A DNA stretch of 64,000 bases from Rhodoferax sp. Lineage in GTDB: Bacteria; Pseudomonadota; Gammaproteobacteria; Burkholderiales; Burkholderiaceae_C. The position numbers and the translations under genes were made by a program. Where the stretch lies: contig JARLJH010000052.1 in the NCBI GenBank assembly GCA_031291305.1, forward strand, positions 1-64,000, in the 5' to 3' direction. Below are positions 4,546 to 64,000 of this stretch, in pieces. The notes under the pieces were generated by a model that did not search any database, was not told the DNA's origin, and was given only the letters and a program-made list of their open reading frames with translations. The first letter of the stretch is position 1. Each line of letters begins with the position of its first letter.

Positions 4546-4606
4546 ATATAAGAAAATGGCCTCTAGCCCCCGTATCTAAAGGGCTATAAGCTACATAAAA
4601 CGTAGT
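4546..4606 (+). repeat. AT-rich hairpin repeat, copy A
   Basis: About 60 bp: an A-rich lead, TAGCCC (4564-4569), a short loop, GGGCTA (4581-4586), then AGCTAC and an A-rich tail. It lies between the 3' end of the CDF gene and the upstream region of ppx. It aligns closely with the copies at 48296 and 63214. Confidence 0.85.
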
Positions 4607-48295: not shown

Positions 48296-48357
48296 TGTAT
48301 GAAAATAGGCTCTAGCCCCCGCAGATAAAGGGCTATCTACTTCTATAAAGATAGTAA
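48296..48357 (+). repeat. AT-rich hairpin repeat, copy G
   Basis: GAAAATAGGCTCTAGCCCCC, then ATAAAGGGCTAT and CTATAAAGATAGTAAG. The TAGCCC/GGGCTA stem is intact. It lies between the convergent 3' ends of cheV and the ALDH7 gene. It is one of the least decayed copies and is useful as a reference. Confidence 0.88.
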
Positions 48358-61912: not shown

Positions 61913-62464
61913 TCAGCAACCCGCCGCAGCGCCAGCGCCACCACCACTTCCACCTTCACCACCCATCTTGGGAATGATCAGTGCAGGTGCCGGCTTGCTG
62001 GGGTCCATGATCAGGAACTTCTTCTGATCAGCCACCACCTTGTCCATGATGGCACCCACTTCAGAGCCGAATAGCTTGGCGACGAAACCCGCATTGAGCA
62101 GCCCAATGTAGACCTTGCCATCGTTCTTCTTGTAAACGGATATTTTGCAAGGCATCAGCAGCGAGAGAAAGCGCACATCGTCCATCTTCAGGATTGGCCC
62201 GGAATAGACTGTGCTGCAAGCCTCGATCAGCAGCACTGGCAGCACATTGCCACCGTCAGCTTCCACAGGTTTAGCCGGATTGCGCAGGCCAGATATGGAC
62301 CAACCATTGCCTGCCGCCTGAATGTTTTGCTGAATGCGGGCGGCAGTTTCCTCGACCGAGTAGGGGCTGGGAACCTCTGAAAACACCATGCCGCCGATGA
62401 GCTTCCAGGCGAGCAATACGCTCAAGGCTACCCCGGCGATGACACCGCCAATAACTTTTATCAT
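61913..62464 (-). CDS. DUF302 protein, first gene of the octaheme cytochrome operon
   Basis: 183 aa. An N-terminal membrane anchor (VIGGVIAGVALSVLLAWKLI) is followed by a DUF302 domain (YSVEETAARIQQNIQAAGNG; LPVLLIEACSTVYSGPIL; LMPCKISVYKKNDGKVYIG). The C-terminus is Gly-rich and ends in Cys (GGGAGAAAGC). DUF302 proteins often sit beside sulfur- and haem-related oxidoreductases; role unknown. A GGAGAC site precedes the ATG; the octaheme gene follows 26 bp later. Confidence 0.85.
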   Translation of the reverse strand: MIKVIGGVIAGVALSVLLAWKLIGGMVFSEVPSPYSVEETAARIQQNIQAAGNGWSISGLRNPAKPVEADGGNVLPVLLIEACSTVYSGPILKMDDVRFLSLLMPCKISVYKKNDGKVYIGLLNAGFVAKLFGSEVGAIMDKVVADQKKFLIMDPSKPAPALIIPKMGGEGGSGGGAGAAAGC

Positions 62465-62524
62465 GTTTGTCTCCGTGCGCGAATCGTTAGAAACATCAGC
62501 GCAGAACGCACCGATGAATTGGTT

Positions 62525-62542
62525 AATAAGTATGTTCTTATT
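62525..62542. promoter_or_regulatory. AT-rich inverted repeat in the promoter of the octaheme operon
   Basis: AATAAG-tatgtt-CTTATT has 6-bp arms with a six-base spacer and lies 61-78 bp upstream of the DUF302 start. Its size and AT-rich arms resemble operators of ArsR-type sulfur or metal repressors. It may instead overlap the -10 region without being a binding site. Confidence 0.4.
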
Positions 62543-62580
62543 TAGTAATTTTTGCGCTAGGGAAAGCACCGCCCACACAA

Positions 62581-62594
62581 TTGACTTTAGTCAA
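62581..62594. promoter_or_regulatory. FNR-type box upstream of the octaheme operon
   Basis: TTGACTTTAGTCAA fits TTGA-N6-TCAA of the FNR/ANR/DNR family; with the flanking bases it is a 7-2-7 perfect palindrome (62580-62595). It lies 117-130 bp upstream of the DUF302 start and 38 bp before the AT-rich inverted repeat, a sensible place for an activator of an anaerobic respiratory operon. Confidence 0.6.
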
Positions 62595-62599
62595 TGGAT

Positions 62600-62818
62600 T
62601 TCGGTGATTTCTGATGCTGCGTTTGCCAACCAGATAGTTGACTGCAAGGCAATGGGACGGGCGGTGGCACCCGCCCTTGGCGCGAATCTGCGTGCGATGG
62701 ATTGCAATCGCTATTGGATCGGGACAGTTTTACATCGACGCCAAAAAGACGCACGTTGAATTCAACGTAAATAAAAGTCACTGCCCGCGCCCCGGATTCA
62801 GAGCGCGGTTGTCACCTC
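62600..62818. other. Intergenic region between the octaheme operon and putA
   Basis: About 220 bp with no gene that I can support. It holds a GC hairpin (GGGCGG/CCGCCC at 62659-62676) and a perfect 16-bp palindrome at 62753 listed separately. Nothing resembles a tRNA or a small RNA I know. Confidence 0.5.
62753..62768. repeat. Perfect 16-bp palindrome near the putA end
   Basis: ACGTTGAATTCAACGT reads the same on both strands without a spacer. It lies 51 bp beyond the putA stop. It could be a regulator site; I recognise no family for it. Confidence 0.5.
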
Positions 62819-64000
62819 TCACCCCGCCAACAACGCCGCGTTCCCCCCCGCCGCCGTGGTGTTGATGGTGACAGTCTGCTCGGCACAGAAGCGGTACAGG
62901 TAGCGCGGTCCGCCGGCTTTGGGGCCGGTGCCGCTCAGGCCTTCGCCGCCAAACGGTTGCACGCCAACCACAGCACCGATCTGGTTGCGGTTGATGTAGA
63001 CGTTGCCGATGTGCGCGGCACGCGCGAGTTGTTGCGCGCGGCTGTCGATGCGGGTCTGGATGCCAATCGTCAGGCCGTAGCCCAGCGCGTTGATCTGCGC
63101 GATGACGGCCAGCGGGTCGCCGCGCCAGCGCACGATGTGCAGCACCGGGCCGAAGATTTCTTCCTTCAGATCGCCGATCTGCGCCACTTCAAACGCCTGC
63201 GGTGCAATCAGGTTTGATATGCTTTGTGTAGCTGCCTGCCCTTTGTTATCCTGGGCTAGAAGGCTATTTTCCTTATAGGAATCCGCGCTTTGCGTTGCCT
63301 GTTGCGACTGACCCAGCAGATTCTTCGCCTGGGTTTGCAGACGGGTCAGGTGACGCTGGATGCCGTCAAACGCCTCGGCGTCGATCACCGGGCCGACATC
63401 GGTGGCCAGGTCCGCCGGGTTGCCCACCACCAGCTCGCGCGCCGCGCCGCAGACCATCTCGATCACATGGTCGGCAATGTCCTCGTGCACGCACAGCAGG
63501 CGCAATGCGGAACAGCGTTGCCCGGCGCTTCTGAAGGCGGACTGCATCACCGCGTCACACACCTGCTCGGGTAGCGCGGTGCTGTCCACCAACATGGCGT
63601 TGATGCCCCCGGTCTCCGCAATCAGCGGAACAATCGGGCCGTCTTTGGCGGCGAGCGTGCGGTTGATGATCTTGGCAACCTGCGTGCTGCCGGTAAACAC
63701 CACGCCAGCCACGCCGGGTGCTGCCACCAGCGCCGCGCCCACGGTTTCACCAGGACCGTGCAGCAATTGCAACGCGCCTTGTGGCACACCGGCGGCGTGC
63801 ATCAGCTTGACCGCTTCCCAGGCCACGCCGGGGGTTTGCTCGGCGGGTTTGGCCAGCACGGTGTTGCCGGTGGCCAGCGCGGCAGCAATTTGGCCGGTAA
63901 AGATGGCCAGCGGAAAGTTCCACGGACTGATGCAGACCCAGGGGCCACGTGCCGTGAGGCGTAACTCGTTGGTCTCGCCGGTGATGCCCAGCACGACATC
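62819..64000 (-). CDS. putA: PutA, C-terminal (P5C dehydrogenase) part, truncated by the window
   Basis: Proline-catabolic bifunctional enzyme; visible are about 393 codons of the aldehyde dehydrogenase half that oxidises glutamate semialdehyde to glutamate. Landmarks are ISPWNFPLAIFTGQIAAALA, FTGSTQVAKIIN, the Glu base in IAETGGINAM, the catalytic C in AFRSAGQRCSALRLL, and GGEGLSGTGPKAGGPRYLYR. Between IQRHLTRL and EIFGPVLH the protein is about 17 residues longer than E. coli PutA, because an AT-rich repeat (copy I) lies in frame there. The frame is open to 64000, so the proline dehydrogenase part is outside the window. Confidence 0.95.
   Translation of the reverse strand, partial: DVVLGITGETNELRLTARGPWVCISPWNFPLAIFTGQIAAALATGNTVLAKPAEQTPGVAWEAVKLMHAAGVPQGALQLLHGPGETVGAALVAAPGVAGVVFTGSTQVAKIINRTLAAKDGPIVPLIAETGGINAMLVDSTALPEQVCDAVMQSAFRSAGQRCSALRLLCVHEDIADHVIEMVCGAARELVVGNPADLATDVGPVIDAEAFDGIQRHLTRLQTQAKNLLGQSQQATQSADSYKENSLLAQDNKGQAATQSISNLIAPQAFEVAQIGDLKEEIFGPVLHIVRWRGDPLAVIAQINALGYGLTIGIQTRIDSRAQQLARAAHIGNVYINRNQIGAVVGVQPFGGEGLSGTGPKAGGPRYLYRFCAEQTVTINTTAAGGNAALLAG
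63214..63279 (-). repeat. AT-rich hairpin repeat, copy I, inside putA
   Basis: On the coding strand it reads CTATAAGGAAAATAGCCTTC, TAGCCCAGGATAACAAAGGGC, AGCTACACAAAGCATATC (three consecutive pieces), aligning with copies A and G over about 60 bases. It is read through in frame and encodes the YKENSLLAQDNKGQAATQS segment. Every other copy in the window lies outside genes. Confidence 0.85.

Follow-up and report, generated by a model that had tools for sequence, protein, structure and literature searches.

An intergenic hairpin repeat that probably entered putA in frame in Rhodoferax, and its copies in other genes

The DNA analysed here, which we refer to as the window, is a stretch of 64,000 nucleotides from a contig of Rhodoferax sp., and it ends within putA. 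The open reading frame (ORF) that carries the repeat described below was identified as PutA by the TIGR01238 model (above its cut-off), and it stays open across the repeat, as a previous reading of the sequence alone had stated. On the reverse strand, the segment inside putA consists of a lead, CTAGCCC, a spacer, AAAGGGC, AGCTAC and an A-rich tail, as do the two sister copies elsewhere in the window (Table 1). The claim of the sequence-only reading that the segment aligns through the whole element with intergenic copies at 4546 and 48296 is thus borne out by the letters, and also by a score of 47.9 bits (E 1.0e-7 genome-wide) with a covariance model built from 30 copies. The putA copy belonged to the training set of that model; at the same place in putA, relatives outside the training set scored 55.8 (G024), 52.0 (G005) and 45.6 bits (G060). 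No Rfam family matched positions 62401-64000 of the window up to an E-value of 0.1. As a separate observation, the linker preceding the element resembles a partial duplicate of the element's own tail (CAGGCAACGCAAAGC versus CAGGCAGCTACACAAAGC).

Table 1. Features of the window, with the other genes of the genome that carry internal copies of the repeat
Feature	Position in window	Strand	Basis
Repeat of about 66 bp, in frame inside putA	63212..63278	-	cmsearch, 47.9 bits; limits from 140 aligned copies; letters
Core of the putA repeat copy, peptide YKENSLLAQDNKGQAATQ	63225-63275	-	cmsearch, letters
3' part of putA (P5C dehydrogenase domain) with stop codon, open at the window end	62819..64000	-	TIGR01238, NF008869, PDB homologues
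Variable linker before the element, GQSQQATQSAD, part of the extra length	63281..63313	-	letters, loop alignments
Sister copy, 59.4 bits, without a long ORF across it	4547..4597	+	covariance model
Sister copy, 41.4 bits, without a long ORF across it	48296..48346	+	covariance model
Further copy, 54.7 bits	37752..37802	+	covariance model, core pattern
Further copy, 37.5 bits	36055..36105	+	covariance model
Weaker copy, 25.6 bits	16194..16244	+	covariance model
Weaker copy, 24.4 bits	49931..49981	-	covariance model
Host genes: asparaginase, recB (twice), recC, mutS, hrpA, metallo-beta-lactamase-fold protein, ygiQ			Pfam
Host genes: FAD/Fe-S oxidase, proA, HGSNAT-like protein, purL, ribD, aminopeptidase, FtsX permease			Pfam
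Host genes: patatin, pgi, nadE, aroE, NIF3, gluQRS, enoyl-CoA hydratase			Pfam

The window contains three instances of the pattern CTAGCCC-N{4,16}-AAGGGC, compared with a mean of 0.01 in 100 shuffles, and a looser core gave 48 forward and 52 reverse matches genome-wide versus 4 and 1 for a reversed control pattern, palindromic copies being counted on both strands and hence twice. The 30-copy covariance model placed the repeat at no fewer than 148 distinct, mostly intergenic places among the best 150 of 2128 scored candidates; a second whole-genome list of copies comprised the best 150 of 2017. The number 148 is a lower bound, because only three of the seven distinct places found at E <0.001 when the window was searched alone appear among the 150 genome-wide matches listed. 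In an alignment of 140 copies of this quasi-palindromic repeat, conservation extends over about 66 bases, that is, 22 codons, with identical limits in intergenic and intragenic copies, and the parts follow the order A-rich lead, GGCCTCTAGCCC, variable spacer, AAAGGGCTAGNAGCTAT and tail; the copies in the window have a GC content of 33-47%. The commonest open frame of the element reads Y-x-K/E-N-x-P-L-A-x-x-x-K-G-Q-x-A-I. Since the element amounts to 22 codons with an open frame, a full copy leaves the frame that it enters unshifted and without a stop. With gene context assigned by a simple gene caller, 64 of the 148 copies lie between same-direction genes (at a median of 18 bases from the end of the upstream gene), 37 are flanked by convergent and 15 by divergent genes, and one lies at an edge; the 31 that lie inside called genes are a depletion, given that 88% of the sequence is coding according to the same caller.

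The sequence-only reading had put PutA at about 17 residues longer than the E. coli protein. Extra length is indeed present, but its size was underestimated: between the flanking blocks there are 37 residues here versus 11 in the solved PutA structures 4q72 and 3haz, which served as reference instead of E. coli PutA, so that 26 residues are extra, the share of the element being 22 codons. Within the genus, the segment has 88 residues here versus 64 in the shortest relatives (five genomes among 40 parsed loops), a difference of 24; loops left unparsed numbered 7 of 59 in one set (6 of which were tried again) and 7 of 53 in another. We placed these loops on a PutA tree of 94 sequences (39 of the 40 parsed genus loops, 47 from the family and 8 named loci) built from 292 columns that excluded the loop itself. 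Carriers make up 15 of the 16 members of one clade, three of these (G061, G079 and G004, 18.8-21.2 bits) being weak; the carrier classes are our own labels, and loci outside the genus were never given the carrier label despite some likeness.

Whether close relatives possess the extra residues without the repeat, a question raised by the sequence-only reading, has a mixed answer. On the one hand, the repeat is found in nearly the whole clade and there are relatives with shorter segments. On the other hand, the sixteenth member of the clade, G085, has a segment of 78 residues, equal to that of its sister G024, without repeat likeness, and G098 has 83 residues with only 11.5 bits; the loop can therefore be long without a clear repeat. 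The same holds for its second question, whether the extra length is ancestral: shorter homologues and the concentration of carriers in one clade speak against this, but at the loop G311, from another genus, scored 22.1 bits, on a par with the weakest members of the clade, and G211 16.7 bits, and the loops of 69 residues in Polaromonas and others retain a tail-like GCAGCTAT..TCAATAGCAAA. The score of G311 and the tail-like stretch suggest that part of the insert may predate the clade. Taken at the level of sequence, the copies across the genome, the near-consensus copies in relatives, the shorter homologues and the largely clade-limited presence support the claim that a repeat normally found between genes has probably become translated in PutA. 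In an AlphaFold model (mean pLDDT 78.4), pLDDT falls below 50 at residues 233-259, between a helix (208-224) and a strand (268-271), although these low values may partly reflect the few aligned sequences (32) there. The loop probably lies on the surface, and PutA presumably remains active.

Other lineages carry repeat-like inserts of unrelated sequence in the same PutA loop. We distinguished six kinds, which fall in about 10 groups on the tree: a CGTCATTGCGAG type, in both orientations and also paired (G015, G072, G026, G112, G284 and G426); a GGATCCCGG..CCGGGATGAC type (G001, G034, G017, G102 and G073); a related GTCATGCCGGACTTGATCCGGCATCCA pair in G501; CTCTCCCGC..GCGGGAGAGGG in G385; CCCTCCCC..GGGGAGGG in G157; and a GCTGAGCCTGTCGAAG type in G433. 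CGTC-like sequences are found among them, and presumably these inserts belong to repeat families known elsewhere. In the 20-40 kb sampled per genome, the G501 insert has a perfect second copy, those of G073 and G157 have one near copy each (the two listed matches of G157 being one place), the G112 insert has three near copies at two places and the G385 insert one poor match, while the G284 insert has no second copy; ten shuffles of each of seven queries produced a single match in all. In the coding loop of G073 (L185), tandem units like TATCGGGACCGGGATGAC can also be seen.

The sequence-only reading had left open whether the family also moves into other genes. The family is indeed present in them: another 22 copies are internal to 21 further genes recognised by Pfam (Table 1), which together with putA makes 23 internal copies in 22 genes. 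A copy is spanned by 74 ORF candidates, 25 of which, including putA, passed a codon-composition filter; 37 ORFs were listed as likely genes, and of these 27 besides putA were scanned with Pfam, 25 of them giving a match, with nine left out of the scan. Three N-terminal copies (in an S49 peptidase, YgjP and a flavin monooxygenase) were excluded from the count of internal copies, because such a copy may precede the true start. Of 25 Pfam-supported copies (a set with the S49 peptidase and YgjP but not the flavin monooxygenase), 16 are read in one sense frame, which is open in 36% of 110 intergenic copies, and none in a second common sense frame, which is open in 23%. The latter is read by the excluded flavin monooxygenase copy and, by eye, by a second copy in putA, and is therefore rare rather than absent. 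This second putA copy lies upstream in the gene, just beyond the window (C17:64226-64276 in the same genome, 21.9 bits), at a site common to other genera (L035:1225-1275, 42.9 bits; L208:1237-1287, 39.5 bits), and is length-neutral by eye.

The copy in proA resembles that in the PutA loop in adding length. ProA has 25 residues more than 4ghk (a gap of 30 on the query side and of 5 on the chain side); within the genus, the site comprises 41-52 residues at 28 of 30 loci and 29 residues at another, one locus being unparsed, and the repeat was detected at E up to 0.01 in 21 of the 30. Among ten short relatives, nine have 23-25 residues (one unparsed), and none has the repeat. For enoyl-CoA hydratase, lengths over the whole alignment differ by +17 from 4olq, +19 from 3h81 and +8 from 6ijk, a gain that is unplaced relative to the element, at which the best alignment stops. 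Three further observations concern these host genes. A second, weaker match near the start of proA scores 22-29 bits in 11 of 30 loci (e.g. L481:1560-1610 and L489:1549-1598); recC has one copy and the neighbouring recB two (L256:13034-13084, L256:15602-15652 and L257:2501-2551); and YgiQ (L252:1490-4087) exceeds its NCBIfam model by about 125 residues in the part of the protein that bears the repeat.

At six intragenic sites, namely in mutS, asparaginase, NIF3, ribD, pgi and the second putA site, there is no clear net insertion. MutS has one residue more than 5yk4, and none of the 30 genus sequences has a gap at that point; outside the genus, the same 47 residues are found in 24 of the best 29 loci (one unparsed), and only two of the 29 have the repeat at the site at E <0.01. 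Asparaginase is longer by 3 residues, NIF3 by about none, RibD is shorter than 2g6v, Pgi shows +6 followed by -7, and AroE about +2 to +5. The copies in mutS, asparaginase, NIF3 and ribD add almost no length, and therefore the residues that they encode appear to have replaced native ones; we read the length-neutral copies as replacement of native residues or as insertion with compensating loss. In the MutS proteins of G191, G192 and G229 (L428-L430), split matches with about 27-35 extra residues were seen at the repeat site.

Conservation at the level of DNA was assessed in the clade taken from the putA tree, which was not chosen by repeat score. Amino-acid identity in the putA loop is 0.39, compared with a gene mean of 0.83, and its synonymous-codon identity is 0.845; draws of the same residues from other parts of the gene gave 0.626 (0 of 2000). 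A synonymous excess is also clear at the second putA site (4 of 2000) and in asparaginase (5 of 2000), weak in proA (117 of 2000) and absent in mutS (1195 of 2000), that is, clear at three of five sites.

Simple insertion leaves the six sites without clear net insertion unexplained, and these sites bear on the rival readings. It is conceivable, although we think it unlikely, that the repeat acts as a template, a copy overwriting an equal length of native codons through a template switch or through annealing of the single-stranded repeat at the fork, with later conversions keeping the coding copies family-like. The element-encoded residues without change of length at the six sites agree with this, as does the combination of low amino-acid and high synonymous conservation at the putA loop, the second putA site and asparaginase. 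However, this excess is missing in mutS and weak in proA, no pair of close relatives revealed a recent gain, and insertion plus compensating deletion reaches the same end state.

A less probable explanation, to which we give little credence, is that the repeat is a selected DNA site, such as an uptake or chromosome-organising signal, that evolved in place by point mutation and was never copied in. It would account for the length-neutral copies in mutS, asparaginase, NIF3 and ribD and for the synonymous excess at three of five sites, and the match to the consensus is in some genes highest at third codon positions (0.61, 0.72 and 0.89 at positions 1, 2 and 3 in ribD; 0.67, 0.67 and 0.89 in proA). 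Yet this match is nearly equal over the three positions in mutS (0.78, 0.79, 0.78) and pgi (0.78, 0.72, 0.74), and six length-neutral copies pooled give 0.67, 0.71 and 0.73, a pool that includes the copy in aroE, which is out of register (a hit of 52 bases with a match of 0.38). Furthermore, about 66 conserved positions are probably more than a binding site needs, and putA and proA show net insertions. The chromosome-organising site found no support in a complete relative, where, with the origin taken to be at base 1, 67 of the best 150 matches listed fall on the presumed leading strand (p 0.22), so that orientation is unbiased, and where spacing is Poisson-like (CV 1.08). Finally, that the extra length is native hypervariable sequence with a chance likeness to the repeat is hardly credible: the loop does vary in length and sequence in all relatives, and in G085 and G098 it is long despite the lack of a clear repeat, but the genome-wide score and E-value of the putA copy speak against it, as do the copies close to consensus that G024 and G005, both outside the model, have at the same place.

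We therefore consider it likely that the PutA segment derives from a REP-like hairpin of 66 bp, a copy of which entered the gene in frame in an ancestor of one clade of the genus, or somewhat earlier, and that this copy survived because it had been placed in a flexible loop tolerating extra residues. According to this proposal, the hairpin would be copied around the genome and retained in genes only where open frames fit; the putA copy would have fallen in a flexible loop of the P5C dehydrogenase domain, between a helix and a strand, in which the addition of 14-25 mostly polar residues may do little harm, and in structured segments presumably only equal-length replacements would survive. As to how copies move, they may arrive by replication-linked or REP-transposase-linked copying. 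A single gene for a REP-associated tyrosine transposase (RAYT; NF047646) was found at L062:1123-1893, beside an ORF that we take to be gltB, and a copy of the repeat begins at its stop codon. A copy is present at the 3' end of the RAYT gene in three strong cases and one weak case among 15 loci that we classed as RAYT-type, compared with 1 of 16 other Y1 loci. These copies are all at the same place, and one inherited event may therefore explain them. There was no sign of a target-site duplication: across 140 copies, duplications of 2-6, 8 or 9 bp were no more frequent than with permuted flanks.

A wider reading, which we put forward as speculation and regard as improbable on present evidence, is that the hairpin family serves as a template that rewrites protein segments, overwriting in structured regions and inserting in loops, that DNA-level processes keep the coding copies family-like, and that the PutA loop is a landing pad for many repeats. 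If this were true, stretches of PutA, asparaginase and others would share the evolution of an intergenic repeat rather than that of the protein to which they belong. Under the preferred reading, a hairpin repeat in PutA and about 20 other proteins would be a natural example of noncoding DNA turned into protein, here palindromic DNA on a large scale outside the intracellular Rickettsiales, and the proteins affected include central and repair enzymes (PutA, ProA, PurL, MutS, RecB and RecC). The PutA loop, with inserts that differ by lineage, amounts to a natural experiment, carried out repeatedly, on the places at which a protein tolerates foreign segments, and the length-neutral copies pose the testable question of how such repeats are written into genes.

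Rickettsia palindromic elements (RPE) are repeats found in frame in Rickettsia proteins. The sequence-only reading had noted a resemblance to them, and this stands as far as mode of action is concerned, without a claim of family membership: in both cases a palindromic repeat is found in intergenic DNA as well as, in frame, in many proteins that are unrelated to one another. Unlike the RPE, the present element has 66 bp, or 22 codons, its host is not an intracellular Rickettsia and several of its copies are length-neutral; the two were likened by description, not by sequence. According to the accessible part of one report, in-frame palindromic repeats are known both from Rickettsia and as intragenic REPs, many of them in repair genes, and different REPs occur at about the same recB site in two Xanthomonas species (PMC3733652). 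Like the GTAG/CGTC REPs described there, our repeat lies mostly 3' of genes with an intragenic minority, here including recB, recC and mutS. It differs from them at the foot of the hairpin, where, in the consensus of 140 copies inspected by eye, GTAG and CGTC are absent and the arms are preceded by GGCCT and followed by AGTAGCTAT.

Other repeats of related bacteria can also be compared, as far as the accessible parts of their descriptions go. The betaproteobacterial repeat BRE, of about 90 bp with 69% GC in Bordetella, often in tandem and also present in Polaromonas and Rhodoferax, likewise has some copies inside coding sequences (PMC3110155); the shorter and less GC-rich repeat studied here is set apart from it by description, not by sequence. 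The enterobacterial mobile repeats RU-1 to RU-3 are similarly intergenic and keep open frames inside genes, but they are MITE-like units of 103-168 bp in other hosts (PMC2759123), and the target-site duplication that is a feature of MITEs was absent from our 140 copies. A further counterpart is a motif pair of Polaromonas naphthalenivorans CJ2, ATAGCT(N)22CAAAAG, with 125 copies, of which 101 are intergenic, 18 are in genes and 34 are between convergent genes (PMC5217627). The antisense consensus of our repeat reads ATAGCT, 22 bases, CTAGAG, and the family is probably the same as this motif, which is unnamed and for which no translation is described in the accessible part of that report. As far as our literature searches show, what is new in comparison with these systems is the convergence of inserts on one PutA loop, together with the length-neutral copies.
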